This document shows, one piece after another, positions 36,609-57,416 of a stretch of DNA of 64,000 nucleotides; position 1 is the stretch's first letter; every line of letters begins with the position of its first letter. This DNA is from Kaistia hirudinis. GTDB taxonomy: Bacteria > Pseudomonadota > Alphaproteobacteria > Rhizobiales > Kaistiaceae. The position numbers were made by a program, and so were the translations under genes. A model generated the notes under the pieces. It did no database searches, had not been told where the DNA came from, and saw nothing but the letters and a program-made list of their open reading frames with translations. The stretch is from assembly GCF_014196455.1 (NCBI RefSeq), contig NZ_JACIDS010000004.1, positions 682,001 to 746,000 of the forward strand. Direction: 5' to 3'.

Positions 36609-36998
36609 GTGCGATGCGGCTGTCGCTCCAGCCAGAGGTGTCCCATGGCCTCCCGCAATCAACGTGGCCCGCGTTGTTCAGGCGGCAGCGATGCCTCTGG
36701 TAGCGATGCGAAACCAATAATCTTCGGTGGCGCCGGGCTGACACCTTATTGTCTCCTCCTGCCGCGCTCAGACAGACTCGTAAGCGCTCAGTCTGCGAAC
36801 GCCCAGTTCCGACCGGCCCTGGCTTCGGTACTGCCGAATGCCTGCATGGAGATGCAGCCGAGAAAGCGGCGCGGATTCGGCGGGGAAATCGTCTCCCGAA
36901 ACCACCCCTGCGATGAGGTGTCCGCAAGCCCCGGAAATGACGGGTGAACTCGCTGCGTCAAAAGACCAAAAGAATAACAATATCAATGGTTTATTTAG
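36609..36998. other. Unassigned DNA between methylase relic and tRNA-Ser
   Basis: About 390 bp with no recognisable gene. Frames on both strands are short. It is probably debris from earlier integration events at the tRNA, but no transposase or inverted repeat was identified. Confidence 0.35.
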
Positions 36999-37088
36999 TG
37001 GCGGAGAGGGGGAGATTCGAACTCCCGATACCCTTGCGAGTATGCCGCATTTCGAGTGCGGTGCAATCGACCACTCTGCCACCTCTCC
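36999..37088 (-). tRNA. tRNA-Ser (anticodon CGA), CCA encoded
   Basis: A full class II cloverleaf on the minus strand: acceptor GGAGAGG/CCTCTCC, D-arm GCA...TGC, anticodon stem CCGCA/TGCGG with loop CTCGAAA (anticodon CGA, decodes UCG), a long variable arm (ATACTC GCAA GGGTAT), T-arm GGGAG TTCGAAT CTCCC, discriminator G and encoded CCA. Its 5' 42 bases are duplicated at 47300-47342. It is therefore the attachment site of the downstream island, and its present 5' half and promoter come from the island. Confidence 0.97.
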
Positions 37089-37089
37089 G
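37047..37089. repeat. attL: 43-bp direct repeat, 5' half of tRNA-Ser
   Basis: Identical over 43 bases to 47300-47342; flanks diverge immediately (TGCC vs GATT on the left, TGT vs CGG on the right). It covers tRNA nucleotides 1-42, ending in the anticodon stem just past the loop, where tyrosine integrases commonly recombine. Confidence 0.93.
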
Positions 37090-37137
37090 TGTAATCCAAC
37101 CATTTAAGAACCAAGGCTGAATCGGCGGTCGGGGCGG

Positions 37138-37166
37138 TTATTAGCCCATCGTAGGACGGTCTGCAA
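37138..37166 (-). promoter_or_regulatory. Island-borne promoter now driving tRNA-Ser
   Basis: Read on the minus strand: -35 TTGCAG, 17-bp spacer, -10 TAATAA, about 50 bases upstream of the tRNA 5' end. It lies inside the island (left end). In the excised circle it would point across attP into the integrase gene. Confidence 0.55.
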
Positions 37167-37210
37167 GGGTCGCTGTGGGTATCGTGTTTTGCGCCGTTCT
37201 GATCAATGAG

Positions 37211-37227
37211 TGTGCCGACATTGTGCC
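37211..37227 (+). repeat. Left integrase arm-type sites (paired TGTGCC repeats)
   Basis: TGTGCC occurs at 37211 and 37222, exactly 11 bp apart in direct orientation, followed by a weaker GGTGCC at 37237. The right end of the island has the same pair with the same spacing. This resembles the arm sites of tyrosine integrases. Confidence 0.5.
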
Positions 37228-37285
37228 AGAGACTTCGGTGCCAGATGACGGTTCTCTGGGCGAGAATGGAAGTGTGAACGCCTGT

Positions 37286-39949
37286 TTAAATTGATCCCGC
37301 CCGCTCCCTAAGCGCCTCATAAAGCCGTCCCGGCCCGAGTAGCACGTCCTTGAGCCCTTCCCTCACTTTCGCCGAATCCAGCGCCTGCTTGCTCAGGCTC
37401 TGGTTGGCCGTGAGGGCGTCGATGATGGCGTTCATGATTTCGTTGGTCAGCGTCGGCGAATTGGAAAACTGCGCCTTGCTGTTGTTCGCAGCCTGAACGA
37501 CCAGTTCTTCGGACTCTAGCAGCTTCCCTTTCAAGACGTTGTTCACGTAGACGAGTTGATCGCCGTCGGTCGTGTCGCTTCCAAACAGGTCGTTGACCTT
37601 TGCAATGATCTCGTTCAGCAGCGCCTTCTCCTTCTCCTGAACGGCGCCGGAGCCAGCCTCATCCGCCGGGGCAAGCTTTGGCTTTTCCCCATCGCCGAGC
37701 GGCAAGGGCAGGGCGCCTTTGGTCCGGAGAACATGATGGGTCAGGGTCAGTTGCGAGACGTCGACGCCTTCTCGCTCCCGGCCGAATTCCAGCAGGGGGA
37801 TGAGGCGCTTGTAGAAGATGAAGCGCTTCTCGATCGCCGTGTTGCCGTAGTCGAATATCTGCGAAAGGAACGTGTAGAGCCGCACGAAGGCGCCCATGTC
37901 GCCCTTGAACAGGATCAAGGCGTTGATCTCGTCTTGGGCCGCCGCTTCGGCCTTGCCATCTCCGTTCGTGATCGCCGATTTCAAACGGTCCTGAGCCTGT
38001 TTGAACTTCTTCAGCAGCCGATCGGCGACGGGTTCGATGGCGGCAATTAAGTCGCCCTGTTTGGACTTCGGGTCCAGTTCGACCTTGGCGACCTGATCGA
38101 CTTCGAACTCGTCATAGTGGCCGGAAGCGTCGAGCTTGGCCCGGAGATTGAAGACGAGGTTCGGATCGGTGACGGACTCGAGTTCGGCCGTATCGTAGTA
38201 GGTCCGGAACGCTGCAAGGATTTCGTCGGAACTGTTGACGAAGTCGAGGATGTAGGTCGTGTCCTTGCCGGGATGGGCTCGGTTCAAACGGGACAGCGTC
38301 TGGACCGCCTGAATGCCGGCGAGACGTCGATCGACATACATCCCGGCCAACAGCGGCTGATCAAAGCCCGTCTGAAATTTGTTGGCGACAAGGAGAAGGT
38401 GATAGTCGTCGCCCTTGAAGGTTTCACGGATATCTCGCCCCTTCAGGCCCGGATTGAGGCCCTTGCTCGTCTCCCTGAAGGGGTCGGGACCACTTTCCGG
38501 ATCGTCGACCTCGCCCGAGAAGGCGACCATGGTGCCGATCTGATAGGCCTTGGATTTGATGTATTTGTCGATGGCGATCTGCCAGCGCACCGCCTCGACC
38601 CGGCTTCCAAGAACGACCATCGCCTTGGCTTTGCCGTCCAGCAGTCCCGCAACATTCGCCCGGAAATGCTCGACGACGATCTCGACCTTTTGGCTGATGT
38701 TGTATGGGTGCAGCCGGACCCATTTCATGATGCTCTTGAGAGCGGCGTCCCGTTCGACCTCCCGGTCGTCGATGTCCTTTCCGCCATGGGCAAGCCGGAA
38801 GGCGAGTCGATAAGGCGTGTAGTTCTTGAGGACGTCGAGGATGAATCCTTCCTCGATCGCCTGCCGCATCGAATAGACGTGGAACGGGGCCGGGAGGTTG
38901 TTCGGCCCGGCTGGTTCGGCAGGTCTCGGCACTCGACCGAACAGCTGGAGGGTCTTCGCCTTCGGGGTGGCGGTGAAGGCGACGAAGGTGATGCCCTTGT
39001 CGCTCGCCCGAGCCGACATCTGAGCGGCCAAGATGTCTTCGGCGCTGACCTCGCCGCCGTCGTTGAGGTCAATCAGTTCCTCCGGTGACAGGACCTGTTT
39101 CAGCTTTGCAGCCGTCTCGCCAGCCTGTGAGGAATGGGCTTCGTCGGCAATGACGGCGAAGGTCTTGCCCTCCGTTGCCGCCAATTCCCTGACGGCCTTC
39201 AAGGCGAAGGGGAACGTCTGAATCGTGCAAACGATGATCTTCTTGCCCTGCGATAGAGCCTCGGCGAGCTTGCCACTCTTGCTCTCGCCTTCGCTCTTGA
39301 TTGTGGCGACGACGCCGGTCGTCCGCTGGAAATCGAACAGGGCTTCCTGAAGCTGGGAATCGATGACGTTCCGATCGGAAACGACGATCACGGTCGAATA
39401 CAGCTTGCCATGGTTGGCGTCGTGCAGGTCGGCGAGGAAATGGGCGGACCATGCGATCGAGTTCGTTTTGCCGGAGCCAGCCGAATGCTGGATCAGGAAC
39501 TTGCCGCCAGCGCCTTCCTCCAGAATGGCAGCCTGCAATTTCCTTGTGGCGTCGAGCTGGTGGTAGCGGGGGAAGATGACGCTCTTGATCTGCTTCTTGT
39601 CGTTGCGCTGGGTGACGAGATAGCGGCCGAGAATTTCGAGCCAGCTTTCCCGTTCCCAGACCTCTTCCCAAAGGTAGGCCGTGCGGTGCCCATCCGGGTT
39701 CAGCGGATTGCCCTTGCCGCCATGATTGCCCTTATTGAAGGGCAGAAAGCGGGTCGCCGGACCGAGTAGCTCGGTCGCCATGTGGACTTCGGTATTGCTG
39801 ACGGCGAAATGCACCAATGCGCCGCTTGGGAAGCCCAACAGCGGCTCTGGAGCCTGCCCCTTGGGCGTCGGGTGCCGATCGAAGCGATACTGGTCTATGG
39901 CGTCCGTAACGCTCTGGGTGAAGTCCGTCTTGAGCTCGGCCGTCGCCAC
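37286..39949 (-). CDS. hsdR: Type I restriction enzyme R subunit, N-terminally truncated
   Basis: 887 aa remain of a normally ~1000+-aa motor/nuclease subunit. Intact SF2 translocase motifs: Walker [14 protein letters not shown], motif [14 protein letters not shown], motif [16 protein letters not shown] and [20 protein letters not shown] with [20 protein letters not shown]. The start is a GTG at 39949 ([14 protein letters not shown]): the ELK of the PD-ExK nuclease is kept but about the first 150 residues, including the catalytic Asp, are missing. The 5' end lies inside the truncated hsdM frame, the result of a deletion that removed the hsdM 3' part, hsdS and the hsdR 5' part. A restriction function is very unlikely. 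Confidence 0.92.
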
Positions 39950-40896
39950 GGGAAGCCCGGACCGAACCGGCCATTGAAGCCTTGGCTTTCATGCTCTTTC
40001 CGGACTTCCTTCTCGACCTTCTTCCATTCGACGCCGTAGGGCGGATTGGAGAGCATGTAGTCGAACTTGCGATAGGCATGGCCATCATCGGAGAGCGTGT
40101 TGCCGACGATGATGTTGCCGACATCCTGCCCCTTGATGAGCATGTCGGCTTTGCAGATGGCATAGGATTCGTCGTTTAGTTCCTGACCGAACATGGTCAG
40201 GCGGGCGTTCGGATTGAGCGCCTCCAGATGCTCGCCAGCGACCGACAGCATGCCGCCGGTCCCAGCCGTCGGATCATAGATCGTGCGAACCACGCCCGGC
40301 TTGGTCAGGATGTCGTCATCCTCGACGAACAGCAGATTGACCATGAGCCGGATGACCTCACGGGGCGTGAAGTGCTCGCCGGCCGTCTCATTGGAGATTT
40401 CGGCGAACTTCCGGATCAGTTCCTCGAAGGCCAGCCCCATTTGGCTGTTGTCGACCTTCTCGGGATGCAGATCGATCCCGGCGAATTTCTCAGTCACCTG
40501 ATAGAGCAGCTTGGCTTTCGCCAGACGCTCGATCTGGGCATAGAACTCGAAGCGCTCGAAAATGTCCCGGACAGCCAGCGAGAACGCTTGGATGTAGGCG
40601 AACAGGTTCTCCCGGATATGGTCCTGATCACCCATCAGGCGGCGCATATCCATCGGCGACGTGTTGTAGAAGCTCTGCCCGGCGACCCGGAGCATGAACG
40701 GCTCGGGATTGAGCCCGGCCTTCGACTTGGCCTCGAACTCGGAGAGCACGGCAACCTTGGTCGACTCAAGGACGCAATCGAGGCGACGAAGCACGGTGAA
40801 CGGCAGGATGACTTTGCCATATTCCGATTGCTTGTAGTCACCCCGGAGCAGGTCGGCGACGGACCAAATGAAGGACGAAAGGGTCTGGTGGTTCAC
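39895..40896 (-). CDS. hsdM: Type I restriction-modification M subunit, C-terminally truncated
   Basis: 333 aa of a normally ~500-aa N6-adenine methyltransferase. Present: N-terminal HsdM domain ([20 protein letters not shown]), the SAM motif [13 protein letters not shown] and catalytic motif [10 protein letters not shown]. Homology ends at [12 protein letters not shown]; the last 20 residues ([19 protein letters not shown]) are a frame-shifted read of the hsdR gene. The C-terminal domain that contacts HsdS is gone and no hsdS exists, so modification is probably lost too. Upstream of the start at 40896 there is no other R-M gene. Confidence 0.9.
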
Positions 40897-41043
40897 GGCG
40901 GCGAGGCTCCCGATCGCTCTTGATTCGGCTCATATGGCCAGAAGGCAACCGGGGATGGCAAGTCCGGGCGCAGCTGATCGGATGTCCGACGTAAGATCAG
41001 CGAACCATTCGGCTTAAGCCGGCGGCGCCGGGCTGATTATCCT

Positions 41044-42006
41044 CTACGACAGCGGAATTTCCGACAATGAAACTGGGACGGAGTAGCCTTTTTCGCTCAA
41101 TAGCATCTCGATACTCGCCTTCCTGCGATCAGGCTCCGACGATGGCCCAACGATCACTCTTGCGATCGGCAACTGCTTCCCGTCAAATGGATCGATCGCA
41201 ATGTAGGGTAGTAGGTAGTTATCCCGAACCTTGAATTGAATTTTTTTGTCTGGAAGTTTCTTAGTAGAAAAACCGTTCCTTGGGATTCCAAAAACCATAC
41301 GAAATTCTCGTTCTTCATGAAATGAAGGATGTTTCAATACAGGTTTTACGGTCACATAGGGCATGAATAGATTATCAATTGAAGTCTTATCTCCTTCAAA
41401 CGATACTTTCTTTCCGGACAATGATTCAATCATTGTTTCTATCATCGTTGGAACAGCTTTACGAAACATATCGAGAGAAGAAGCGATCTCGGAATATTGA
41501 CTGTCCGTTGTCCCATATACTACGTCACCAAACATTGATCCCGATGTCTTATAATTCTGCCCTTGTCGACGCCACATCTTTTTTAGCTTTTTGGTGTCAA
41601 AGACTATAGCCACCCCGCCGTCGCCATAGCTCCTCCATTGGCTAAGAAGTCCATGTTCTGCGCTGTGTTGCGTCTCTGCTCGACAGAATGACGTAACGAA
41701 AAGTGGACTGAGCCGATTCGAGACTAGCCTGATCGATGATAGGAGATTGCTGGTCTCTTTATCGCACAGGTCCTTCATTTCGAAATTATTCGTCATTAAA
41801 CTGGCGTTTTGTAATTCAACAAATCGTCTTTCGAATTCTTGCGACATCATAGGTCGTATTATTTCATCGGCATATATAAGTTCCTTACGGTCATTCATGA
41901 ATTCTATATGAGAAGCATGAATATTGTTAGATTCAACAATTCCTAACAATCCTCGGATGCTTGTGTAGTGGAAAAGTTCTTTTGGGTCTTTGGTTTTATC
42001 GTCCAT
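41044..42006 (-). CDS. DUF2971-domain protein
   Basis: 320 aa. Family hallmarks are visible: LFHYTSIRGLLGIVESNNIH at the N-terminus, HIEFMNDRKEL, FVTSFCRAETQHSAEHGLLS followed by QWRSYGDGGVAIVFD, and HPSFHEEREFRMVFG. DUF2971 proteins are of unknown molecular function and often lie in genomic islands and near defence genes. Its base composition is clearly lower in GC than the chromosome, as for the rest of the island centre. It is a single gene between hsdM and the divergent recombinase; a role in phage defence is speculation. Confidence 0.85.
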   Translation of the reverse strand: MDDKTKDPKELFHYTSIRGLLGIVESNNIHASHIEFMNDRKELIYADEIIRPMMSQEFERRFVELQNASLMTNNFEMKDLCDKETSNLLSSIRLVSNRLSPLFVTSFCRAETQHSAEHGLLSQWRSYGDGGVAIVFDTKKLKKMWRRQGQNYKTSGSMFGDVVYGTTDSQYSEIASSLDMFRKAVPTMIETMIESLSGKKVSFEGDKTSIDNLFMPYVTVKPVLKHPSFHEEREFRMVFGIPRNGFSTKKLPDKKIQFKVRDNYLLPYIAIDPFDGKQLPIARVIVGPSSEPDRRKASIEMLLSEKGYSVPVSLSEIPLS

Positions 42007-42177
42007 GCTCAGCCAGCCTTTGGGTCTTCATTTTAGAGTCAGCTGTCATCGTAGGCCCTACCCCTCGATCAGGGTAGCGACGGCGATCAGGCATTTGCAA
42101 AAACGAAGGTATTTGAGATCAGCCCCGCCGGCACGGAAAACTAGCCGAAAGGCCGTGTCCAAAATTCTTGAAACAGT

Positions 42178-42226
42178 CTCTCGAAATTAGTACTCTCGAA
42201 ACGTGACAGTGGACGGGTTTCGAGAG
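42178..42226. promoter_or_regulatory. Putative recombination/operator site of the serine recombinase
   Basis: Three copies of a 9-bp element lie just before the recombinase gene: CTCTCGAAA at 42178-42186 and 42193-42201, and its inverse TTTCGAGAG at 42218-42226. Resolvases usually bind repeated inverted sites immediately upstream of their own gene, for recombination and autoregulation. Confidence 0.5.
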
Positions 42227-42236
42227 GGCGGCTCCT

Positions 42237-42806
42237 TTGAAGATCGGCTATGCACGTGTTTCAACGGCGGATCAGTCCTTGGGCCTTCAACAGCAGGCGC
42301 TGGAGCGGGAAGGCGCTGAACGAATCTTTGTCGAGACGGCATCGGGCGCACAGCGGGATCGCCCTGAACTCGCCAAGGCGCTGGCGTTCCTCCGCTCTGG
42401 CGACACGCTGATTGTCTGGAAGCTGGACCGGCTTGGCCGTTCGCTGCGGCAGCTGATTGATACGGTCGAGGCTTTGAACGAACGGGGTGTCGAATTCCGA
42501 TCTATCACGGAGAATCTTGAGACCGGGACCCCCGGCGGGAAACTCATCTTCCATGTCTTTGGAGCGCTCGCCGAATGGGAACGGTCGTTGATCAAGGAAC
42601 GGACCATGGCGGGTCTTAAGGCGGCCAAGGAGGCGGGGAAGGTTGGCGGACGGCCTCGGGCTCTCTCGGAAGCCGATCTTGCCGCAGCGAGAGCGCTATT
42701 GGCCGATCCGGCTATTACCGTGAAGGAGGTCGCCGATCGGCTCGGCGTGTCCCAGCCAACCCTGTATCGGTATCTGCCGGCAGCAAAGGACCAAGCGAGG
42801 GCGTGA
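42237..42806 (+). CDS. Serine recombinase (Tn3 resolvase/DNA-invertase family)
   Basis: 189 aa, small serine recombinase. N-terminal catalytic domain: IGYARVSTADQSLGLQQQAL with the nucleophile Ser in RVST, LIVWKLDRLGRSLRQLIDTV with the catalytic Arg, and SITENLETGTPGGKLIFHV. The C-terminal HTH Hin-type domain reads TVKEVADRLGVSQPTLYRYL. Start is a TTG at 42237 preceded by GAGGGCGG. It is preceded by an array of 9-bp inverted elements. No transposase or invertible segment is evident; it may be a remnant of a Tn3-type element or a stability function of the island. Confidence 0.92.
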   Translation: MKIGYARVSTADQSLGLQQQALEREGAERIFVETASGAQRDRPELAKALAFLRSGDTLIVWKLDRLGRSLRQLIDTVEALNERGVEFRSITENLETGTPGGKLIFHVFGALAEWERSLIKERTMAGLKAAKEAGKVGGRPRALSEADLAAARALLADPAITVKEVADRLGVSQPTLYRYLPAAKDQARA

Positions 42807-42810
42807 GGGC

Positions 42811-43221
42811 GTGAATCAACGGAGAAGAGCCGGCTGCATTCAGCGGCGGTTCGCCGTCGATGGCATGGTCTATCTGTTTGAGGCCGCACCCGGCTCCGCC
42901 GTCACCTTTCGGATTGTTTCGGGCGGCACGAGGAAGCGCCGCTACAATCCACACTTCTGGTTTGATGATGAGGATGTCGTCTCGATCGAGGATGGCGACT
43001 TCCTCCGCTCGGCGATCCCGTTATTCCGTTCAGTGAAGGCGATCCTTATCGATTGGGTCTTTAGCCAGCGGCCGTTCGGATTTCGGATCGAACCCTCTAC
43101 CGATCGCAAGGAGCCGATCTATCGTTGGATGGCACATCGGCTGGGCAGGAGCCTACATGGACAATATTCCATGGTTGAGGAGCAAGAAGCGTTCTATTTC
43201 TATCGAAGCGCTGGCTCTTGA
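42811..43221 (+). CDS. Hypothetical protein
   Basis: 136 aa, not recognised. Start GTG at 42811, four bases after the recombinase stop, so probably co-transcribed. Basic N-terminus (MNQRRRAGCIQRRF) then a mixed alpha/beta sequence with acidic FDDEDVVSIEDGD and the stretch RFAVDGMVYLFEAAPGS. No signal peptide or membrane segment. The C-terminus is aromatic (EEQEAFYFYRSAGS). Confidence 0.6.
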   Translation: MNQRRRAGCIQRRFAVDGMVYLFEAAPGSAVTFRIVSGGTRKRRYNPHFWFDDEDVVSIEDGDFLRSAIPLFRSVKAILIDWVFSQRPFGFRIEPSTDRKEPIYRWMAHRLGRSLHGQYSMVEEQEAFYFYRSAGS

Positions 43222-43273
43222 ATCAGACATAGCCAATGGTATGCGGGGCTCGCTCGCCCCGTTGAGGAGGACC

Positions 43274-43483
43274 ATGAACACCTTAACACAAGACGATTAT
43301 CGTCGACGATTGTCCGAATTCGTCACAAAGGAAGAGGCAAAGCGGCCCCTTGGGAAGCGGCCGCAAGGCTTCTTTGGCCATTGGGGTTTCTACACACATT
43401 GCCAGGTCGAGTTTGATGGCGCTCTCGCACGAGAGGACATTGAAGTCCTTAGTCCGACGGGAGAGACAACATATGAGAAATGA
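43274..43483 (+). CDS. Small hypothetical protein
   Basis: 69 aa from the ATG at 43274, preceded by GAGGAGG six to ten bases upstream; a longer frame from 43157 overlaps the previous gene. The product MNTLTQDDYRRRLSEFVTKE... is charged and soluble, with a central GFFGHWGFYTHCQVEFDG segment. No family recognised. It lies 52 bp after the preceding hypothetical gene. Confidence 0.6.
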   Translation: MNTLTQDDYRRRLSEFVTKEEAKRPLGKRPQGFFGHWGFYTHCQVEFDGALAREDIEVLSPTGETTYEK

Positions 43484-43824
43484 AGCTCTCCATCACATGA
43501 ATGCGGTATGGCCCAACAGCTAGCTGAGCAGAGCGTTCTGGCCTTCGCTCGACATTGAACACCGAGTTCAGCCGTCCTCCGTCGACTAGAGCCCACTGTT
43601 TTGGACCGTGGCCGCCAAGGGCATGGCACGTGCCGAGGCCGACGTAAACCCGGATTTCAGGAGTCTGGCTGCAGCGTCCCGCCGCTGTCTATCTCATCTT
43701 CATTGCTGATCGAATATTTTATTGTTTCAACTGTTATGTTATATTACAGCATGATATCATAACCTGATATCGATCGTGATTAATATAGTGTTAATGTATT
43801 CCAATTTTTGGATTTGATGCGACG
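43484..43824. other. Island intergenic DNA, composition boundary
   Basis: No gene recognised. The first ~190 bp are chromosome-like in GC; from about 43690 the sequence becomes strongly AT-rich and stays so to about 44900. Confidence 0.35.
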
Positions 43825-44220
43825 TCATCGACGTTTTCGAGATAGACGATAACCGTTATCCGTCGCCCAGCGCAGCTTCTCAGCCTCTGACAGGGTACGA
43901 CCTGTGATAGCTCCGCCGAAATTACCGCCGAACGTTCTAAGTCTTTGCGTTCGGTGCCCGCCAAATCGATTTTGGCTGTATCCTCGCAGATCGGGGGGGA
44001 ATTCGACAACCCGCTTAGGTTTGGGGGTGTCTGCCGATTCGATGACATTTCTTATAGTCGATATATTCAAGTAATAAATCGATATGCGTCGGATTTTTAG
44101 ATTAAATAGAGTCTTATTATCTATTATCCACATTAGGTAATTTTGAGGGATATCAATCCATTTCTTTTGTCTGTATTTTTTTCCGACTTCGCATATTGAT
44201 AGGCTGAAGTCTGTATCCAT
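43825..44220 (-). CDS. Small protein with DUF3820-like N-terminus
   Basis: 131 aa. The segment EVGKKYRQKKWIDIPQNYLM (residues ~11-30) resembles the short GKYKGxxxxDxPxDYLxWLL module of DUF3820/exonuclease-associated proteins. The rest (Lys/Arg-rich, RLSRKRR C-terminus) is not recognised. Low GC, no good ribosome site; the C-terminal part differs in composition from the N-terminal part, so it may be a chimera or decayed gene. Confidence 0.4.
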   Translation of the reverse strand: MDTDFSLSICEVGKKYRQKKWIDIPQNYLMWIIDNKTLFNLKIRRISIYYLNISTIRNVIESADTPKPKRVVEFPPDLRGYSQNRFGGHRTQRLRTFGGNFGGAITGRTLSEAEKLRWATDNGYRLSRKRR

Positions 44221-45252
44221 ACGAATATGTAGTGCTCGTTGAGCGTGATAAAGAATATCTGGTCAAAAACTATTATATTGTGATAATATCCATAATATAT
44301 AATCTGTAGGAATGTCGGACCAATTTTTTCCCTTGTAACGACCAAAAGGGCATTTGCTGATTGTGCTAGATTTTGTCATTTTAATTATGATAAGATAGAA
44401 AAGTACGTTCGAATGAACGAAGTGAATTCGTGTTCTCGAAGAGAACGAGGTTACATTTTATTTGGAAAAATTGTCTAGTATCATAATGTTTATTATCGAT
44501 ATGATTCCGTATTCGGGTTTTCTAAATTAATGTTTGTTAAAAGATCTTCATAATGATTTATATTTAATTCAATGAAGCGATCCTCCGGCTCGCCTTCGGA
44601 CCTTTCGGTCCTCAGTGTCTATGAATGAATTATTTGTATGTTCTAAATATTTCAATTATGACTCACTTATAGCACAGAAACGAAGTAAAATCAAGTGTGT
44701 TGTGGCTATGATTGGTTTGTTTGTTGAAATCTATGTAATATAAAGTTCAGTCATAATAGATGATATCACGGTTATATAGATTTATTATATAATGTATCGC
44801 TATTTTAATATATAAATACGGTGGTAATATGCGTATTAACTGGCGCAATATTCATTCTGTATGAAAATAATAGTATAAATTGAACTAAGGTTATTTGAAG
44901 ATGGCTTCTCGATAATTGACAGGAAGCAGATTGCTCTCCCGTAGAGATTTTGGCTCTCGGAAGACGGTTAGGTTATCGTGCTCTGTGCATTGTGGCTCGC
45001 CGCTGCGCCGACGGTATTGTTCCCGATGGGGCATTCACGCAGTGCCGACAGCGAGCCGTCCTGAGCGGCATGTCAGCGGTGCCACGATTGATGCAATTCG
45101 TGGACCTCCTCCGCTTCGACCAATTCGACTAAGGCAGGCCAGAATTAGCTCGAATTCGTTTCCAGCATCTTCTTATTGTCTTTCTTCCCGTTGTGCCTCC
45201 CATCAAACATAGAATGCTCGGGCACTTAGACAGTTAGGCGTGACCCTGGAAT
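44221..45252. other. AT-rich island segment without recognised genes
   Basis: About 1 kb, very AT-rich to about 44900, then more balanced. It contains hairpins, e.g. CGTTC-GAAT-GAACG at 44406-44419, GTTCTC-GAA-GAGAAC at 44432-44446 and GGACC-TTTC-GGTCC at 44598-44611. Frames up to ~98 codons (44916-45212) lack ribosome sites and recognisable sequence. A small RNA, a replication or transfer origin, or simple decay are all possible. Confidence 0.4.
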
Positions 45253-45621
45253 CTACAGATTCTGCTGGGAAGCGGCTTTCTCTGCGATCGAAATTAGCAT
45301 GTCGATCCATTCGTCGGGAAGCTGGTTGGCGACTGCGTTGAGCCGTATGAGCAAGCGGCGGCGGTCGGACGGCTGGCTCGGATTTGGCTGTGCATCCCAA
45401 CCGGCGAGAAAGTTAGGCGAGGCATCCAACGCATAGGCTAGGGCGATCATAATCTCGAAATTCGGCCGGTTCACGCCCGTTTCAAGCTTACTGAGCGTCA
45501 CGGACGAGATGTCAGCCTTCGCCACGACTTCATCCTGCGTAAGGCCGGCCATGGATCGGGCCGCCTTTAGGCGGTCCGGCAACTGTTCGGCGGCAATGCG
45601 TGCTCGTTCTCTCGGGCTCAT
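45253..45621 (-). CDS. XRE-family HTH DNA-binding protein
   Basis: 122 aa from the ATG at 45621 (MSPRERARIAAEQLPDRLKA); a longer frame to 45651 is less likely. The Cro/C1-type HTH is clear: LTQDEVVAKADISSVTLSKL ending ETGVNRPNFEIMIALAYAL, residues ~25-70. The C-terminal half is helical and ends EWIDMLISIAEKAASQQNL. It is divergent from the zinc-ribbon protein gene (45786), so the 165-bp gap between is probably its operator region, and it may be the island's repressor. Confidence 0.87.
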   Translation of the reverse strand: MSPRERARIAAEQLPDRLKAARSMAGLTQDEVVAKADISSVTLSKLETGVNRPNFEIMIALAYALDASPNFLAGWDAQPNPSQPSDRRRLLIRLNAVANQLPDEWIDMLISIAEKAASQQNL

Positions 45622-45785
45622 TCTCCATCTATGGGGACAAAGCGAGAGCACTGAGTATATCCAGACATACCAGTTTTCTCTTGAAAGTGGTATATATGGA
45701 CGGTAATCCAGTTGTGGTTCGTCCGGACGGATGGGAACCCGTTGACGGCAAGTCAGCCGCAGCGTTTCGACTGGCGAGGGGGACT

Positions 45786-46106
45786 ATGAGCACGGCATCG
45801 TCTGGTACTGTCGAATGCCCGTATTGCTCGGGCGAGATTTCGCCCAAGGCAAAGAAATGCCGGCATTGCGGAGAGATCCTTGATCCACAAATGCGGGAGA
45901 TGGAGCTGCTGAAGAATCAGCGAACAGCCCCTCCGCCCGTCTATATGAATGCCGGTGGGGGAGGTGGAGCCGCCGGCGGATATGCGGCGCCCTTGCGTCG
46001 GTTTCCGCACGTCCTGCACATTATTATATGCCTGATAACCGGCGGACTATGGTTCCCCGTTTATGTCCTTCTGTATCTGTTCAGGAACAAGCAATATTAT
46101 ATATGA
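45786..46106 (+). CDS. Zinc-ribbon protein with C-terminal membrane segment
   Basis: 106 aa from the ATG at 45786, which has GAGGGGG upstream; ATGs at 45696 and 45600 give longer forms. The zinc ribbon is ECPYCSGEISPKAKKCRHCG (two CxxC pairs). A Gly-rich linker follows and then a hydrophobic hairpin-like stretch IIICLITGGLWFPVYVLLYL with a basic RNKQYYI tail. This architecture resembles small phage-related membrane proteins including superinfection-immunity-type proteins. Divergent from an XRE repressor gene. Function unproven. Confidence 0.65.
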   Translation: MSTASSGTVECPYCSGEISPKAKKCRHCGEILDPQMREMELLKNQRTAPPPVYMNAGGGGGAAGGYAAPLRRFPHVLHIIICLITGGLWFPVYVLLYLFRNKQYYI

Positions 46107-46187
46107 ATATATATCAAATATAGCATAAATTGGTGCGCTCGAAGACAAAATTTAGCGCACTAAAAACTTTATATATTGGAAGCGGAA

Positions 46188-47165
46188 CTATAGCAACTTC
46201 TTTGAGACCTCTTCTGGGCGAATATGAGTGTATCTGAAGAGCATTCGAAGGTCCTTATGACCGCTGATCAGGGCGACCTCGGGGACGGATAACCCTTGCT
46301 CAAAGAAGCGGCTGATAGCCTCATGGCGCAGGTTATGAAACCTCAAATCAGACAGAGCGGCTCGGCGGGTCATGCGCTCCCAAGCACGGCCGACTGTGCC
46401 AGCCTTTATCGGAAACACGTAGCTGGCAGAGCGATCCAACTGGCGTAAAATACACTTAGCTCGGGAGCTAAGCGGGACGTCACGTCGATCCCCATTTTTC
46501 GTGATAGGCAAACGGGCGACGCCTCTCTCGAAATCGACATGATCCCACCGGAGCGCCAGCAGTTCGCCTCGCCGCATTCCGGTTTCTATGGCTATTTCGA
46601 CGAGTGGACGCAAATACGGTGGGCTATGTCCGATTGCGTCATTGATAGCCTCGATATCCGACAGCTCGAGTCGGCGCTGTCTCGCACGTCCGGCAGGCGG
46701 CTTTTTTACACCGGCCAACGGATTCCTGCCCAATGGGACGCCCCATTCGTTTCGTGCGACTTCGAAGCAATGGCTTAGTAGTGCCAGCTCTCTTCGGACG
46801 GTGCCCGTCTTGACTTGCGTCAATCTTTCGTTGCGATAGGCGGCGACAGAGGCGCTTGTGACCTTAGACAGTTTGGTCCGTGCGAGGGCATGGCGTCTCA
46901 GAACGGCGAGCTTATAGCGCTCTCGATCGCCGCTTCGCTTAGTGCAAGTGATCGTCTGTTCGTATCGGTCGAGCAGGTTGCCGACGGTCATGTTCCCGAG
47001 GCGGCCCGCTCCGGGATCAACTTCCCGGCGATCAATTTCTCGTTCCCGTTCCCTCGACCATTCAACCGCTGCGACTTTGGAGCCGAACGACTTCGTTAGG
47101 CTTGGATAGCCCGCCTTGCGGATCTGAGCGTGCCATTTGGTTCCACGCTTTCGGATAGTAGCCAT
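46188..47165 (-). CDS. Tyrosine-type site-specific integrase
   Basis: 325 aa phage/island integrase. An N-terminal arm-binding domain (MATIRKRGTKWHAQIRKAGY) and SAM-like core-binding domain precede the catalytic domain with Arg in ETGMRRGELLALRW, His-x-x-Arg in LRFHNLRHEAISRF, SGHKD and the nucleophile Tyr in FRYTHI. It sits at the right end of the island, pointing inward from attR, 134 bp from the repeat. Upstream lie paired TGTGCC repeats (probable arm sites), and beyond attR the displaced host tRNA promoter reads into it. Confidence 0.95.
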   Translation of the reverse strand: MATIRKRGTKWHAQIRKAGYPSLTKSFGSKVAAVEWSREREREIDRREVDPGAGRLGNMTVGNLLDRYEQTITCTKRSGDRERYKLAVLRRHALARTKLSKVTSASVAAYRNERLTQVKTGTVRRELALLSHCFEVARNEWGVPLGRNPLAGVKKPPAGRARQRRLELSDIEAINDAIGHSPPYLRPLVEIAIETGMRRGELLALRWDHVDFERGVARLPITKNGDRRDVPLSSRAKCILRQLDRSASYVFPIKAGTVGRAWERMTRRAALSDLRFHNLRHEAISRFFEQGLSVPEVALISGHKDLRMLFRYTHIRPEEVSKKLL

Positions 47166-47177
47166 AGCAAATCAATC

Positions 47178-47194
47178 TGTGCCCGATGTGTGCC
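47178..47194 (+). repeat. Right integrase arm-type sites (paired TGTGCC repeats)
   Basis: TGTGCC at 47178 and 47189, 11 bp apart in direct orientation, the same spacing and sequence as the pair at 37211-37227. They lie just upstream of the integrase start. Confidence 0.5.
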
Positions 47195-47249
47195 GAGCCG
47201 ATTGACGATGGGACTATCGATGAGATTTCACGAGAGATTCGCTAGACAA

Positions 47250-47272
47250 AGCAGTAGCTTACGTTAACTGCT
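47250..47272. promoter_or_regulatory. Inverted repeat in the integrase leader
   Basis: AGCAGT (47250-47255) and ACTGCT (47267-47272) form a 6-bp stem with an 11-base loop containing GTTAAC, between attR and the integrase start. It could be an operator or a transcript hairpin. Confidence 0.35.
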
Positions 47273-47299
47273 CAGCATCTCTATGACGTGAGGTAGATT

Positions 47300-47342
47300 G
47301 CATTTCGAGTGCGGTGCAATCGACCACTCTGCCACCTCTCCG
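47300..47342. repeat. attR: 43-bp direct repeat, displaced 5' half of tRNA-Ser
   Basis: Perfect copy of 37047-37089. The 3' half of the tRNA is absent here, so this is the displaced original 5' part of the host gene, and it marks the right boundary of the ~10.3-kb island. Confidence 0.93.
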
Positions 47343-47368
47343 CGGTGGCGCTCTCGGGCGCGAAGCGG

Positions 47369-47397
47369 GTGATACATGGGTGCGGCGCGGAAGACAA
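47369..47397 (-). promoter_or_regulatory. Displaced host tRNA-Ser promoter facing the integrase
   Basis: On the minus strand: -35 TTGTCT, 17-bp spacer, -10 TATCAC, starting about 30 bases upstream of the tRNA 5'-half remnant. It lies outside the island in host DNA. Transcripts would run through attR into the integrase gene. Confidence 0.45.
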
Positions 47398-47869
47398 GTC
47401 CTTCGGCACGGCTCTTTTGCGGCGGCTGGGGATGGCGCCGCCGTCTTCCCGTCATCGCCGGATCAGGCCGGCGCCGGGTTTGGCGATCCAGCGCGTGAAC
47501 CGCCGGGCTGTCCGTCCGTCGCGCGCCTCGAGAACGGTCGGTTTCGCCCCGCCTCGGCCAAATCGAGGTGAGTCACACGCCTGCCCCAGTTCCCGGAACC
47601 GGTGGCCTTCGCACCGCCTCCTGGCGACGGACAGGTGTCGAGCTGCGAGCCGCGTCCCTCTCATGGCCGGTCATGGCGCATCCATGCGGAGCTGGCTGCG
47701 CGTCGGGGAGGACCGGCGAGAGAAAGGCTGGATGGCCGGGTCACGCCCGGCCATTGCAGGAGATCGATCGCCGTGCGCGCTTCGCTCAGCCGAGCGCTGA
47801 TCGGCTTGATCTCTTTGTTGGATCGCGTCTTCTTGACGCGAACCGGCGTCCGCTTCGCTCGAGAAAGCC
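47398..47869. other. Intergenic region with a Hyphomicrobiales-like repeat element
   Basis: No convincing gene. A hairpin CGCGTC-TTCTT-GACGCG at 47824-47840 is followed by GAACCGGCGTCCGCTTCGCT, which resembles a dispersed intergenic element common in this order (from memory, not searched). It lies just after the tautomerase stop and may act as its terminator. Confidence 0.4.
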
Positions 47870-48055
47870 CTAACGGTCCGAGAACAGGACGCCGCCCTTG
47901 GCCTTGTCGGTGCGGGGGGCCTCGACGATCTGGATCGTCACGGCTTCCGGCGCGGCGCCGAAATTCTTCACCACCGCGTCGGTGATGTCTTTGACCAGGG
48001 CGCGCTTCTGCTCGATCGAGCGGCCTTCCACGGCATAGACGATAACTTCGGGCAT
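47870..48055 (-). CDS. 4-oxalocrotonate tautomerase family protein
   Basis: 61 aa, the standard length. Starts MPEVIVYAVEGRSIEQKRAL; after Met removal Pro1 is the catalytic base. The Arg of SIEQKRALV and a late basic residue in the loop EAPRTDKAKGG complete the site. It forms hexamers in the family and isomerises 2-hydroxymuconate-like dienols. The next genes encode an esterase and a VOC dioxygenase in the same orientation, consistent with handling of ring-cleavage products, though a 112-bp gap separates it from the esterase. Confidence 0.9.
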   Translation of the reverse strand: MPEVIVYAVEGRSIEQKRALVKDITDAVVKNFGAAPEAVTIQIVEAPRTDKAKGGVLFSDR

Positions 48056-48167
48056 TGTTCCTCCTCTTGCCTCCGCGTCGGCGGGAGGAAAGGAGTAGCG
48101 GCGCGGCGGCTCGCGTCAAGCCGCGCCGCGACTTCCGTGTGGCTCGCGGCTGGAGTTCCGTTCGGCC

Positions 48168-48827
48168 TCAGGCGGCGAGGCCGGTGAGCAGCGTGCGGAT
48201 GAGGCCGATTTCGTCGTCGTTCACGCCATGGCCCGAGCCGCGATAGATGCGCTTGGTCACCTCCGCGCCGGAGGCGGCGAATCGCGCAGCGGAGAGTTCG
48301 ACGCGGGCTAGCGGGATATGCGCGTCCATCTCGGCGCAGCCGAAGAGGGCCGGCGTGCCGGCTAGCGCAGGGGCGGCTTCGGCGACCTCGTCGTCGGCGC
48401 CGATCAGTCCGCCCGACAGCGCAACGACGCCGCCATAGCGGCGCGGGCGGCGGATCGCGCTTTCGAGCGCGAGGCACGCGCCCTGCGAGAAGCCGAGCAG
48501 CACGATCCTGTCGTCTGGGATGCCGGCCGCGTTCAGGTCGTCGGCGAGCGCGGCGACATTGGCGAGCGCGGCGGAGAGATAGGGCTCGTTCAGCCGGCGC
48601 GGCTGCATGAAGCGCTCGGGATACCAGACATGGCCGGCGGCCTCGGGCGCGAGATAGGTGATGTCGTCGCGGCCGAAATAGGAGGCGAGCGAGAGTATGT
48701 CGTCGGCGCTGCCGCCGCGGCCATGCAGCAGGATCATGGCGCCCCCCGCCTCGGCCGCCGGCGCGCCGGCGGCGAGGACGGGACGGCCGCCATGCGGGGC
48801 GGGCCCGCGCGTCGTCTGAAGGGTCAT
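48168..48827 (-). CDS. Alpha/beta-hydrolase, carboxylesterase/phospholipase family (MhqD-like)
   Basis: 219 aa. Catalytic elements: oxyanion strand MILLHGRGGSADD, nucleophile elbow LLGFSQGACLAL, Asp in CAEMDAHIP and His in GSGHGVNDDE. The start at 48827 begins MTLQTTRGPAPHGG; the earlier ATG at 48878 is less likely. It follows the ring-cleaving dioxygenase gene by 67 bp; the pair resembles the MhqO/MhqD genes known in Bacillus for quinone detoxification. Confidence 0.87.
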   Translation of the reverse strand: MTLQTTRGPAPHGGRPVLAAGAPAAEAGGAMILLHGRGGSADDILSLASYFGRDDITYLAPEAAGHVWYPERFMQPRRLNEPYLSAALANVAALADDLNAAGIPDDRIVLLGFSQGACLALESAIRRPRRYGGVVALSGGLIGADDEVAEAAPALAGTPALFGCAEMDAHIPLARVELSAARFAASGAEVTKRIYRGSGHGVNDDEIGLIRTLLTGLAA

Positions 48828-48894
48828 CTTTCTGTCTCCTCGGATGGCGAGGCCGGCGGCGCGTGGCCGCCGGCCCATTGATCGGCGCTGCCGC

Positions 48895-49845
48895 CTAGAG
48901 CGGCTTCAGATTGGCTTCGATCGAGCCGCGGCGTCCCTCGAGGAAGGGCGGCAGCGAGAGCTTCTCGCCGAGTGTGGCGAGCGGCTCGTCGGCCGTGAAG
49001 CCGGGGATGTCGGTCGCGATCTCGAACAGCACGCCGCCCGGCTCGCGGAAATAGAGCGAGCGGAAATAGAAGCGCTCGACCTCGCCGCTGGAGGGGATGC
49101 GGAAGCCGCGGACACGCTCGGTCCAGGCCGCGAGGCCCTCATAGTCCGGCGTGCGGAAGGCGACGTGGTGGACGGCGCCGGCACCCTCGCGGGCGACGGG
49201 CATGTCCGGCTCGACCGCGACATGCAGCTCCGCCGCCGGGCCGCCGGGGCCCATCTCGAAGACATGCACCTGGTTGGTCGAGATCGCGTTCACGGGATAT
49301 TCCGCGATCTTCTTCATGTTCATGACGCGCGTCAGCACCGTCTCGGTCGGCTCCAGCTTCGGCACGCTCATGGTTATCGGGCCGAGGCCGAGGATCTGGT
49401 GCTCCGCCGGAACCGTGCTCTTCGCCCAGGGATGGGCATCGGCCGGGGCGCCATTGGCGACGAGCGACAGGCGCTGGCCTTCCGGATCCTCGAAGGCGAG
49501 GGTGGGGCGGCCGCCGACCTCGACGACGTCACCGGCCTTGACGCCGGCGGCGCGCAGATGGTCGCGCCACCAGCCGAGGCTCTCGCCATCGACGCGGAAG
49601 CCGGTGCGCACGACCGAATGCGTGCCACGGCGCGCGGGGCCGACCGGCCAGTCGAAGAAGGTGATGTCGGAGCCGGGCGTCGCGTCGCCGTCGCCGTAGA
49701 AGAGGTGATAGGCGGTGGTATCGTCCTGGTTCACCGTCTTCTTGACGAGGCGCAGGCCGAGAACGCGCGTGTAGAAATCGAGATTTCCCGAAGCATTGGC
49801 CGTGATGGCCGTCAGATGATGAAAGCCGCCGAGCGAGAGGTCCAT
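48895..49845 (-). CDS. VOC-family ring-cleaving dioxygenase (MhqO-like)
   Basis: 316 aa with two vicinal-oxygen-chelate modules. Each starts GFHHLTAITANASGNLDFYT and LGPITMSVPKLEPTETVLTR; the metal ligands are the His of FHHLTAI, the His of VHHVAFRTPDY and the Glu of FREPGGVLFEIAT. Typical glyoxalase-like blocks include FYTRVLGLRLVKKTVNQDD. ATG at 49845 has GGAG nine bases upstream; an ATG at 49869 is also possible. Family members cleave catechols or hydroquinones or protect against quinones. In its 205-bp divergent promoter a pair ACAAT/ATTGT is a possible MarR-type site. Confidence 0.88.
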   Translation of the reverse strand: MDLSLGGFHHLTAITANASGNLDFYTRVLGLRLVKKTVNQDDTTAYHLFYGDGDATPGSDITFFDWPVGPARRGTHSVVRTGFRVDGESLGWWRDHLRAAGVKAGDVVEVGGRPTLAFEDPEGQRLSLVANGAPADAHPWAKSTVPAEHQILGLGPITMSVPKLEPTETVLTRVMNMKKIAEYPVNAISTNQVHVFEMGPGGPAAELHVAVEPDMPVAREGAGAVHHVAFRTPDYEGLAAWTERVRGFRIPSSGEVERFYFRSLYFREPGGVLFEIATDIPGFTADEPLATLGEKLSLPPFLEGRRGSIEANLKPL

Positions 49846-50050
49846 GGGGGTCACTCCGTCTGTGTTCATTGTCGGAGCTGAAGATCGTCGTGCGGAGGGT
49901 TAAACACAATCGACCCTTGCGGAACAAAATTGTCTCTGATTGGTGAACAGTCCCGCGCGATTGTTGCGTTCGCGCAAGGCGATGCCCCGGTTTCGCCGCG
50001 ATGATGCGGCCCCGTCAGGCAGGGGCGGTGGAGAGAAGCGGGAGAGCGAG

Positions 50051-51457
50051 ATGGCGGATCGGGAGCGGCAGTTCCTCTGGGGCGCGGCGAGCGCGGCCTA
50101 TCAGGTCGAGGGCGCCTGGCAGGCGGCCGGCAAGGGTCTTTCGAACTGGGACGTCTACACGAACGTTTATCACGTCACCGAGGCGGGCGCGGGCCGTCAG
50201 GAGACGGGCAACGTGGCGATCAACGCCTTCGATCGCACGCAATATCTCGCCGATATCGCCCTGATGCAGGAGCTCGGCATCAACGCCTATCGCTTCTCGC
50301 TCGCCTGGACGCGGATCCTCCCTGATGGCACGGGGCGGGTGCTGCAGGCCGGGCTGGACCATTACAGCCGCTTCGTCGACGATCTCCTCGCCGCGGGCAT
50401 CCGTCCGGTCGCGACGCTGTTCCACTGGGACATGCCGCAGGCGCTGGAGGATCGCGGCGGCTGGCGCAATCGCGAATCCGTCGGCTGGTTCCGCGACTAT
50501 GCCGCGCTGGTGCGCGATCGCCTGGCAGACCGGGTCGAGACCTTCGTCACCCTTAACGAGCCGTTCATCAACCTCTTCCTGATCGAGCCCCTGGTCGAGA
50601 TCGCCAAGGAGAGCATCGGCAATCCCGGCGCCATCACGGATGCGCAATGGACGCGCCAGGCGATGGCGATGCATCACTGGATGCTGGCGAGCGCCGAGAC
50701 GGTGGGCGATTTTCGCGCCGCCGGCTTCAAGGGCGAGGTCGGCCTGTCGCTGCCGCTGATGCCGACCCTGCCCGAACGGCCGGGGGAGGGGGAGGACATC
50801 GCGGCGGCGTCGCTCGCCGATGCGGTGATCAATCGCTGGTGCCTCGATGCGATGTTCAACGGGCGCTATCCGGACGAGGTCGTCGCCGAATTTGCGCGCC
50901 GCGATCCCGCCTTCGCGGCCGTGGTCGAGGATTTCCCGCGCCTCGCCGCGAACCGTCACGATTTCCTCGGTGTCAATTTCTACGCGCCGGCCTTCGTGCG
51001 GCGCGATGCGGCGGCGCCGCTCGGCTTCCGCTGGGGCGCCTATAACCCCGATCCGGCGCCCCAGGCCTTCAACGGCCCGGTGCGGCCGGACTATCTCAAG
51101 GTCCTGCTGGAGCGCATCCGCGACGACTATGGCAATCCGCCCGTCTACATCACGGAAAACGGCGCCGGTTTCGGGCCGAGCGACGAGGTGATGGCCGACG
51201 GCACGGTGAAGGACCCGCGCCGCGCCGATTATGTCGCCCGCCACATCACGGCGGCGCTCGAGGCGAAGGCGAATGGCGCGGACCTCCGCGGCTACATGAT
51301 CTGGAGCCTCTTCGACAATTTCGAATGGCTGCAGGGTTACAGCCGCCGCTTCGGCATGGTGCATGTCGATTTCGACACGCTGAAGCGCACGAAGAAGCAG
51401 AGCTTCGAGACCTATCGGGAGATTATCGCGCGCGGGGTGGGGCCTCAGGCCGGATAG
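50051..51457 (+). CDS. GH1 family beta-glucosidase
   Basis: 468 aa, standard GH1 length, retaining glycosidase. The N-terminal signature FLWGAASAAYQVEGAW is present; acid/base Glu is in TFVTLNEPF (~residue 165) and nucleophile Glu in VYITENGAGF (~residue 366). GYMIWSLFDNFEWLQGYSRR is the C-terminal substrate-binding block. No signal peptide, so cytoplasmic. The ATG at 50051 has GGGAGAGCG upstream; the longer frame is unsupported. Its last 13 bp overlap the convergent guanine-deaminase gene. Confidence 0.93.
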   Translation: MADRERQFLWGAASAAYQVEGAWQAAGKGLSNWDVYTNVYHVTEAGAGRQETGNVAINAFDRTQYLADIALMQELGINAYRFSLAWTRILPDGTGRVLQAGLDHYSRFVDDLLAAGIRPVATLFHWDMPQALEDRGGWRNRESVGWFRDYAALVRDRLADRVETFVTLNEPFINLFLIEPLVEIAKESIGNPGAITDAQWTRQAMAMHHWMLASAETVGDFRAAGFKGEVGLSLPLMPTLPERPGEGEDIAAASLADAVINRWCLDAMFNGRYPDEVVAEFARRDPAFAAVVEDFPRLAANRHDFLGVNFYAPAFVRRDAAAPLGFRWGAYNPDPAPQAFNGPVRPDYLKVLLERIRDDYGNPPVYITENGAGFGPSDEVMADGTVKDPRRADYVARHITAALEAKANGADLRGYMIWSLFDNFEWLQGYSRRFGMVHVDFDTLKRTKKQSFETYREIIARGVGPQAG

Positions 51458-52776: not shown

Positions 52777-52904
52777 GGTCGCAAGGCTCGGTTTCGGCGC
52801 ATCGGCGCGATTGACGGGGGCTGCCGCGGCGGATGACACTCGCGGCAAGCGAGACGCAACGATCTCGCGCCATGGGCGGAAATACCAGAGGGCATGATGC
52901 AGCC

Positions 52905-53954: not shown

Positions 53955-54105
53955 TCCGCACGTCGCGACCGACACCGGAAGGGGCGCTGCCAAAGGCCGC
54001 GGCGGGCGTCGATGGACACGGAACGGGGCACCCGGTACAAGGACGCCTATGGGAACCGGATCGGAAGAGCGGTCCGGCCGCGCGTCGTGCGCCTGACCGG
54101 GTGAT

Positions 54106-55953: not shown

Positions 55954-56285
55954 GCCCGCCGGGACGATCTCCAAGCCCGTCCGTTCCGTGATGGCGCCGC
56001 CGAAGCAACGGCGGCCGCGGCGCAGCTCCGCGGCCTGCAGGAAGGCTCTTCCGAGCGTGCTCCGGCGCGTGCTAGCCTCGCTCGCGGCTGGGGGGAATCC
56101 AGGAATTGCCGTCTTGAAGGCCATCGCCCGCAACGCGCGATCGTGAACGCCAACCGCTCCGATCTTCACCGGAAGCCGCTGGGACGCGGCAGGCCGTGGG
56201 TGATCGCAGCCTCGTTCCGTACGTCGCTTTCGGTCCTCTCCCGTCTCAGCCGACCCTGTCGTCGCAGCCGCGGCGATGCAACCCG
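55954..56285. other. Intergenic region upstream of exported nucleoside-hydrolase-like gene
   Basis: About 330 bp, GC-rich, no recognisable gene or hairpin of note. Presumably carries the promoter of 56286-57335. Confidence 0.35.
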
Positions 56286-57335: not shown

Positions 57336-57350
57336 GGCGACGACAGGCAG

Positions 57351-57380
57351 CCTTGCCGGGAACGGTTCGTCCCGGCAAGG
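57351..57380. terminator. Bidirectional terminator hairpin
   Basis: A perfect 11-bp stem, CCTTGCCGGGA (57351-57361) and TCCCGGCAAGG (57370-57380), with an 8-base loop, between the stop codons of two convergent genes. Strong intrinsic hairpin; only weak T-tracts follow. Confidence 0.7.
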
Positions 57381-57416
57381 CGCCGATGGCGCGCCTCCGA
57401 GGCGGCGTGCGCCGCC

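Follow-up and report, generated by a model that had tools for sequence, protein, structure and literature searches.

Anatomy of the island

The window, i.e., the whole stretch of 64,000 nucleotides (nt) analyzed here (positions 682,001 to 746,000 of contig NZ_JACIDS010000004.1 of Kaistia hirudinis), carries an island of 10.25 kilobases (kb) inserted in the gene for tRNA-Ser(CGA), the only tRNA that ARAGORN identifies in it (Table 1). The original prediction, made from the letters of this DNA alone, held that the island had entered the 5' half of this gene and that, as a result, the tRNA and the island's integrase gene had exchanged promoters. The anatomy of the locus, the identity of the ancestral leader, the integrase arm sites and the match of both leaders to tRNA promoters all point in this direction, and we consider it likely that the island swaps promoters between tRNA-Ser(CGA) and the integrase at each event.

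A single family of direct repeats of at least 20 nt is present between positions 36500 and 48000, composed of two 43-nt copies (100% identical) that lie 10,253 nt apart and comprise nt 1-42 of tRNA-Ser(CGA) plus one base upstream, in agreement with the predicted extent of the repeats. The integrase open reading frame (ORF) is read leftward, pointing away from the right-hand copy, and lies inward of the tRNA 5' fragment, from which it is separated by a gap of 134 nt. By the membership rules given for Islander islands (PMC4383910), the locus has an intact tRNA and a same-orientation end fragment with an integrase between them, a length within 2-200 kb, and a 5' fragment located upstream of the tRNA. 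The alternative layout, an element at the 3' end of a tRNA with the intact tRNA upstream of the integrase, is not that of the window, where only nt 1-42 precede the integrase gene. The placement of repeat, tRNA and integrase thus supports integration into the 5' half, and the reconstituted tRNA has the same sequence as in congeners (84 of the 90 nt are visible for one of them, G006).

The integrase residues R198, K223, H277, R280, H303 and Y312, which we take to be catalytic, are invariant among seven aligned sequences. At the integrase-side junction (47292-47325), the core is surrounded by an inverted repeat with a single mismatch, made up of GGTCGATTGCA of the tRNA fragment and TGCAATCTACC from the integrase side and equalled by 6 of 2000 shuffles; its two halves are possibly the core-type binding sites.

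Table 1. Features of the tRNA-Ser(CGA) island and its flanks (window coordinates)
Feature	Position	Strand	Basis or remark
Intact tRNA-Ser(CGA)	36999-37088	-	nt 1-42 from island, nt 43-90 from host
Distal attachment (att) copy, junction with restored tRNA	37047-37089	-	exact 43-nt repeat
Island-supplied leader, predicted distal integrase arm	37090-37285	-	
Predicted island promoter facing the tRNA, TTGCAG-17-TAATAA	37138-37166	-	14.89 bits, own-genome tRNA promoter model
Predicted distal arm-type site pair, GGCACA-N5-GGCACA on minus strand	37211-37227	-	motif match
HsdR-like ORF (type I restriction helicase subunit)	37286-39949	-	Pfam and PADLOC
HsdM-like ORF	39895-40896	-	Pfam and PADLOC; shorter than its models
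DUF2971 protein	41044-42006	-	Pfam
Serine resolvase	42237-42806	+	Pfam
HTH_3 regulator	45253-45651	-	Pfam
Tyrosine integrase, 325 amino acids	46188-47165	-	PF00589, 5.2e-28
Predicted integrase-end arm-type site pair	47178-47194	-	motif match
Displaced tRNA-Ser 5' half, integrase-side att copy	47300-47342	-	exact repeat
Predicted original host tRNA-Ser(CGA) promoter, TTGTCT-17-TATCAC	47369-47397	-	12.60 bits; leader kept in 12/13 congeners
Host flank	47343-64000	.	syntenic with tRNA upstream region in 6/12 congeners with regions retrieved

Origin of the two leaders

The leader found to the right of 47342 precedes an intact tRNA-Ser(CGA) in 12 of 13 congeners, always in the order CTTG box, CATGTAT, a GCGCCACCGC-like end and the tRNA, which identifies the host leader as ancestral. 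The island leader is present in none of these 13 congeners, whose 62-nt leaders all differ from it. When positions 37089-37300 were compared with 397 genomes sampled from the order, only the genome itself and eight short matches were recovered (22-58 query bases, E values from 4e-4 to 0.009). Among plasmids, the 20 listed of 24 matching records match essentially the tRNA half alone; phage records gave no match to the island leader, and its exact 21-nt core occurs in no viral contig. Capture of the leader from another known tRNA-Ser was therefore rejected, as the genome, plasmid, phage and viral searches gave no source for it.

The genes to the right of 47343 lie upstream of the tRNA in G001, G004, G005, G007, G008 and G013. 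If the window flanks are joined and compared with uninterrupted loci, identity to G001 and G004 is 46/60 and 49/60 in the upstream 60 nt, 90/90 in the tRNA and 53/100 and 56/100 in the downstream 100 nt; for G005 it is 39/60 upstream and 21/100 downstream, and for G007 47/60 and 37/100. When the upstream comparison is extended to 300 nt, identity to these four genomes falls to 131-153/300, so that the likeness is concentrated in the promoter stretch. The DNA immediately 3' of the tRNA (36678-36998) recurs at several places in G004 and G008, in G004 beside tRNA-Ser(GCT), and weaker copies lie beside tRNA-Ser(GCT) and tRNA-Ser(GGA) of the K. hirudinis genome itself, as a repeated element located downstream of serine tRNAs. 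The exceptional congener is G008, in which other genes and a different leader intervene between the usual upstream gene and tRNA-Ser(CGA) (L081 5293-9247); the intervening ORFs, named by eye, are autotransporter-like, Crp-like and L,D-transpeptidase-like, with no tRNA fragment found by pattern and no integrase recognized among them.

We conclude from these comparisons, as far as sequence can tell, that 37090-37285 is island DNA and that 47343 onward is the old leader of the tRNA. A relative with the island leader and no island, the observation that the original prediction named as fatal to it, was sought in the 13 congeners and the 397 genomes and did not appear, and the comparison with uninterrupted loci that it proposed came out in favor of the leader exchange.

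The two predicted promoters

The island leader contains TTGCAG (37166-37161) and TAATAA (37143-37138) separated by 17 nt and directed leftward into the intact tRNA, and the host leader contains TTGTCT (47397-47392) and TATCAC (47374-47369) with the same spacing, directed leftward via the 5' fragment to the start of the integrase at 47165. Both pairs were analyzed with a two-block model trained on the leaders of 42 of the 45 tRNAs found in this genome (the window's own leader and two tRNAs situated behind another tRNA were omitted), with consensus words as starting values. This model, trained without either leader, selects the very sites originally predicted: for the island leader CTTGCAG-15-GCTAATAA, at 14.89 bits, and for the host leader CTTGTCT-15-TGTATCAC, at 12.60 bits. 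Leave-one-out scores of the 42 leaders range from 0.72 to 20.21 (median 13.2), and the island score is reached by 3 of 2964 random 110-nt window pieces (14 reach the host score) and by 5 of 1500 shuffles of the island leader, all counts being derived from printed fractions. The island -10 box ends 49 nt before the tRNA, within the 7-75 nt observed in the 34 training leaders scoring above 10. A plain sigma-70 consensus scan of the host side (46900-47700) returned no site, so an organism-specific model matters here, and this interval also contains no terminator-like site.

Orientation, geometry and model score are thus consistent with an island promoter that serves the tRNA, as originally proposed, on which the gene may depend. 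The host promoter likewise faces the integrase with no terminator-like site on the way, and could drive it.

Integrase arm sites

The island of the window and that of G001 each carry paired words at either end, which prompted a search, upstream of every integrase gene, for 6-mers of whatever sequence that recur at a spacing of 11 bp. The set consisted of 84 loci (the best 80 of 565 relatives, plus the window, G082, G077 and G001; some of them repeat congener genomes), across which G-x-CACA pairs recur. The G(G/T/C)CACA pair, a motif partly derived from the two window sites themselves, has two hits in the 64 kb with both strands counted (37211-37227 and 47178-47194), one per island end. With any second base, 37 of the 84 loci have the pair no more than 140 nt upstream of the integrase, the other 47 being without this strict form. 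Away from the integrase leader, 20 further matches were found in 1,366,457 nt, every one of them on the integrase-forward strand, and 15 of them lie, by our own reading, beside a distal tRNA piece. The island promoter is situated between the distal arm site and the core, and the island leader, judged by this motif, doubles as the distal arm of the integrase.

Attachment types in the integrase family

In 40 of the 84 loci an intact same-orientation tRNA precedes the integrase by 60-260 nt, with 14 kinds of tRNA represented, and in four of the 84 a reversed tRNA lies within 40-260 nt. Some family members (L139, L165, L099 and L125) have a reversed tRNA whose 5' end is directed toward the integrase, which would make the tRNA leader the integrase-side arm. 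A clear pair of att repeats was recognized in 18 loci: seven of 3' type (L092, L101, L113, L147 and L157, and the reversed L136 and L143), eight of whole-gene type (L088, L091, L093, L105, L129, L139, L165 and G001) and three of 5' type (the window, G082 and L127); four more with tRNA-like repeats (L118, L130, L137 and L163) were left unclassed. The 3' repeats start at nt 16-31 of the tRNA and the 5' repeats end at nt 42, 40 and 40, so that what they share is the anticodon loop (nt 31-40). Another ten loci have only some elements of the 5' layout and were labelled 5' type, less securely, for the tree: a 29-42-nt 5' piece of tRNA-Arg(CCG) lies within 450 nt of the integrase in L104 and L116 and 1.1-8.7 kb upstream in L107, L110, L114, L115, L117 and L120, and an intact tRNA-Arg lies downstream in L124 and L130.

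In a tree of 80 of the 84 integrases (L106, L154, L158 and L161 were dropped because of an in-frame stop), the window groups with L086 (G013) and L087 (G012) at 100/99, followed by the whole-gene island of G001 at 100/93. In L086 and L087, from the same genus, an intact tRNA-Ser(CGA) adjoins the integrase, and no displaced or distal 3' fragment of it was found in the G012 or the G013 genome. The other 12 rows labelled 5' type fall in one group of 14, together with two rows without a recognized tRNA. The 5' label requires three changes on this tree, of which well-supported branches force at least two, and the position of the window apart from the other 5' types suggests that its 5' attachment is probably a separate change within a group that otherwise keeps the tRNA beside the integrase.

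The islands of G082 and L127, both at tRNA-Arg(CCG), resemble that of the window in integrase family, in the 5' half upstream of the integrase and in the intact tRNA at the far end. They differ from it in the distance between 5' half and integrase, 2.3 kb in G082 and 0.4 kb in L127, and in a repeat that extends over about 55 nt of leader (identity 93/95 and 97/97, respectively), so that the promoter is duplicated, not exchanged. An unrelated leader is thus found only in the window among the three clear 5' types, and also at the far end of the whole-gene island L093, where it scores 6.77. The promoter swap is a consequence of the 5' attachment type, visible only when the leaders differ. Promoter strength as a cross-species marker of 5'-type ends was tried and rejected, as the scores of the types overlap (11.58-15.22 for the far ends of the three clear 5' types; the other types are given below).

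Two side observations concern these relatives. In several tRNA-Arg(CCG) islands the leader and 5' half are immediately preceded by a tRNA-Arg 3' half in inverted orientation (L071 15025-15052, L107, L114, L110, L118 and L130, with part of it in L120); 7 of 19 positions score 38-84 against shuffle maxima of 26-31, and the other 12 score 16-24. Inverted anticodon cores would there flank a promoter cassette, which might be invertible by the integrase. In the window, the tRNA-Ser 3' half does not rise above shuffles in either direction in the island leader, or in direct orientation on the integrase side. In addition, a CCTTGGC...(G/A)TCC-like stretch, possibly a structured leader or a regulator site, was noticed by eye about 40-70 nt upstream of the integrase gene in L098, L104-L107, L109-L112, L114-L117, L120-L122, L124, L127, L129, L130, L133, L134, L145 and G082.

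Proposed mechanism and alternative explanations

In the proposed mechanism, the tyrosine integrase would cross over in the anticodon loop of tRNA-Ser(CGA), the attachment site of the excised circle (attP) carrying the tRNA 5' half preceded, on the distal arm, by a tRNA-type promoter. Integration would cut the tRNA gene in the middle and rejoin the host 3' half to the island promoter and 5' half, leaving the host promoter and its 5' half 134 nt from the integrase. The island promoter would then transcribe the tRNA and the host promoter the integrase; after excision the host promoter would return to the tRNA, and in the circle transcription from the island promoter would pass through attP to the integrase, a geometry that the sequence supports as originally predicted. 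Transcription, excision and the exact crossover point are the parts of this scheme deduced from the layout.

Several observations weigh against this scheme. The right-flank genes were not found near the tRNA in six of the 12 retrieved congeners (G002, G003, G009, G010, G011 and G012), and the likeness of the left flank to G001 and G004 is only moderate; moreover, as the left flank belongs to the repeat that accompanies serine tRNAs, downstream likeness is weak proof of a native 3' side. The leader of G008 differs with no integrase recognized, indicating that leaders at this locus can change by other routes, and the island leader has no relatives by which to judge its conservation. As for the promoters, TAATAA matches the textbook -10 hexamer in 3 of 6 positions, its support coming from the genome's own tRNA promoters, and the lowest quarter of true leaders (scores up to 9.45) is equalled by at least 4.3% of control pieces. 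Far ends of six loci with 3' pieces, from other species, score 5.63-12.78, and those of six forward whole-gene islands score 5.22-15.54 (four of the six only 5.22-7.10). Finally, the integrase may have a promoter of its own in the 134-nt gap.

Some of these points would fit an island whose anatomy is as described and whose promoter-like sequence is fortuitous, the tRNA being silent or weakly transcribed from elsewhere. The genome also has a gene for tRNA-Ser(UGA), which can in principle read UCG by wobble, as in other bacteria, and this, together with the poor plain -10 match and the promoter-like scores at the far ends of 3'-type islands, is what such an explanation would need. Against it stand the rarity of the island score among window pieces and shuffles, the identity of the window tRNA to that of congeners, and the use of UCG for 74 of 166 serine codons in eight host ORFs within the window (five of which were read from stop codon to stop codon), from which tRNA-Ser(CGA) probably matters for speed; we regard a fortuitous promoter as quite unlikely. 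The presence of tRNA-Ser(UGA) also bears on the proposal, part of the original prediction, that the swap penalizes loss of the island and so works as an addiction device keeping it in place. Partial loss of the left end would indeed remove the tRNA promoter, but precise excision gives the complete tRNA its host promoter back, and harm would come only from a deletion of that end. Addiction was rejected on this geometry and on the second tRNA gene, and is highly improbable.

On the integrase side, read-through from the host promoter could be irrelevant, either because the integrase has its own promoter or because its 5' untranslated region (UTR) attenuates the tRNA-promoter transcript, as do the stem-loops in the int 5' UTR of ICEKp1 (PMC13023037). 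Hairpins are predicted in the 134-nt UTR of the window integrase, but its folding is not clearly beyond that of shuffles (z -1.40; 21/200 as good), for which an RNA attenuator was rejected as a candidate, and neither a terminator-like nor a consensus promoter site is found in 46900-47700; we regard irrelevance of the read-through as doubtful. It is also conceivable, and rather unlikely, that the 5' type is a decayed whole-gene type whose integrase-side tRNA copy lost its 3' half by deletion. Whole-gene types do exist in the family, including that of G001 with the same cargo, and the sister islands at the same tRNA have an intact tRNA beside the integrase; yet the fragment ends at nt 42, near the nt 40 of two unrelated 5'-type islands, which would be the core edge, and no trace of the tRNA 3' half is left on the integrase side.

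Relation to known systems

Swenson et al. (cited in PMC2951348) had already suggested that integrated elements are coupled to tRNA promoters. Among the 3919 islands of Islander, 159 have 5' fragments and 3760 leave a 3' fragment (PMC4383910), and the window island resembles the former in its tyrosine integrase, in its intact tRNA gene with a same-orientation 5' fragment and in its anticodon-centered crossover class. In contrast to that paper, from whose text the word 'promoter' is absent, leader exchange, arm sites and family setting are documented for the window. Switching of the integrase promoter has been shown experimentally in ICEKp1, and analogous results are reported for ICEclc and ICEEc1 (PMC13023037), in line with the mention of ICEclc in the original prediction as a case of integrase control across the att site. 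As in these elements, the window integrase lies downstream of the host tRNA promoter without an intervening terminator, with a far-end promoter pointing across attP, so that the former would serve the integrated form and the latter the circle. Those elements occupy the 3' end of a tRNA whose own promoter is retained, whereas the window island would also switch the tRNA itself to the island promoter.

Integration at the 5' end of a target gene that receives an element-supplied promoter is known from dusA islands (PMC8409611, PMC4482086) and from SXT at prfC; IMEVchUSA3 places dusA under a new promoter that is weaker, and SXT is cited for providing prfC with a new promoter as well (PMC8409611). 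The window island would similarly supply a new promoter and the 5' part of its target, with the difference that dusA and prfC are protein-coding genes left with an altered N-terminus, whereas the target in the window is an RNA gene whose 5' half is exactly rebuilt. Phages of tRNA-dependent lysogeny (PMC10865867) also integrate at a tRNA gene and make the host rely on tRNA information supplied by the element, but they carry a separate tRNA gene instead of rebuilding the tRNA as the window island does. Island-driven exchange of a tRNA's promoter was not met in the literature searched, most subscription papers being outside the reach of the search. Accordingly, 5'-fragment islands, integrase promoter switching and promoter donation to dusA and prfC are already known, and what the window adds is that they are combined at a tRNA, together with the arms and the family setting.

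Cargo of the island

The cargo has a close relative in the G001 island in tRNA-Arg(CCG) (HsdM 97%, HsdR 91%, resolvase 86%, DUF2971 protein 50%), whose integrase is different (54%). The HsdM and HsdR ORFs overlap in the window, and about 2.7 kb that separate them in the G001 island (L069 13942-16614) are missing, for which the restriction system of the window is probably inactive. No relaxase or type IV secretion genes, the mark of an integrative and conjugative element, were recognized among the nine island ORFs scanned with Pfam, and a single-protein search found no relatives of the integrase in viral contigs.

Biological meaning

Islands at tRNA genes mostly replace the 3' part and leave the promoter untouched; here mobile DNA appears to have taken over transcription of the tRNA, and the tRNA and the integrase would be served in turn by one pair of promoters. 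A wider model can be put forward tentatively, in which one integrase family recombining in the anticodon loop carries either half of a tRNA or the whole gene, and the half carried decides whether a tail or a promoter is traded. Carriers of the 5' half, having arisen at least twice on the present tree, would then work as a double-throw switch that exchanges the tRNA and integrase promoters at every excision, and integrase bound to the arm about 45 nt upstream of the island -35 box could tune the supply of a leading-codon tRNA. As related islands of other layout occupy the same tRNA in the same genus, the consequences of 5' versus 3' attachment for the levels of tRNA and integrase and for the stability of the island are directly measurable.

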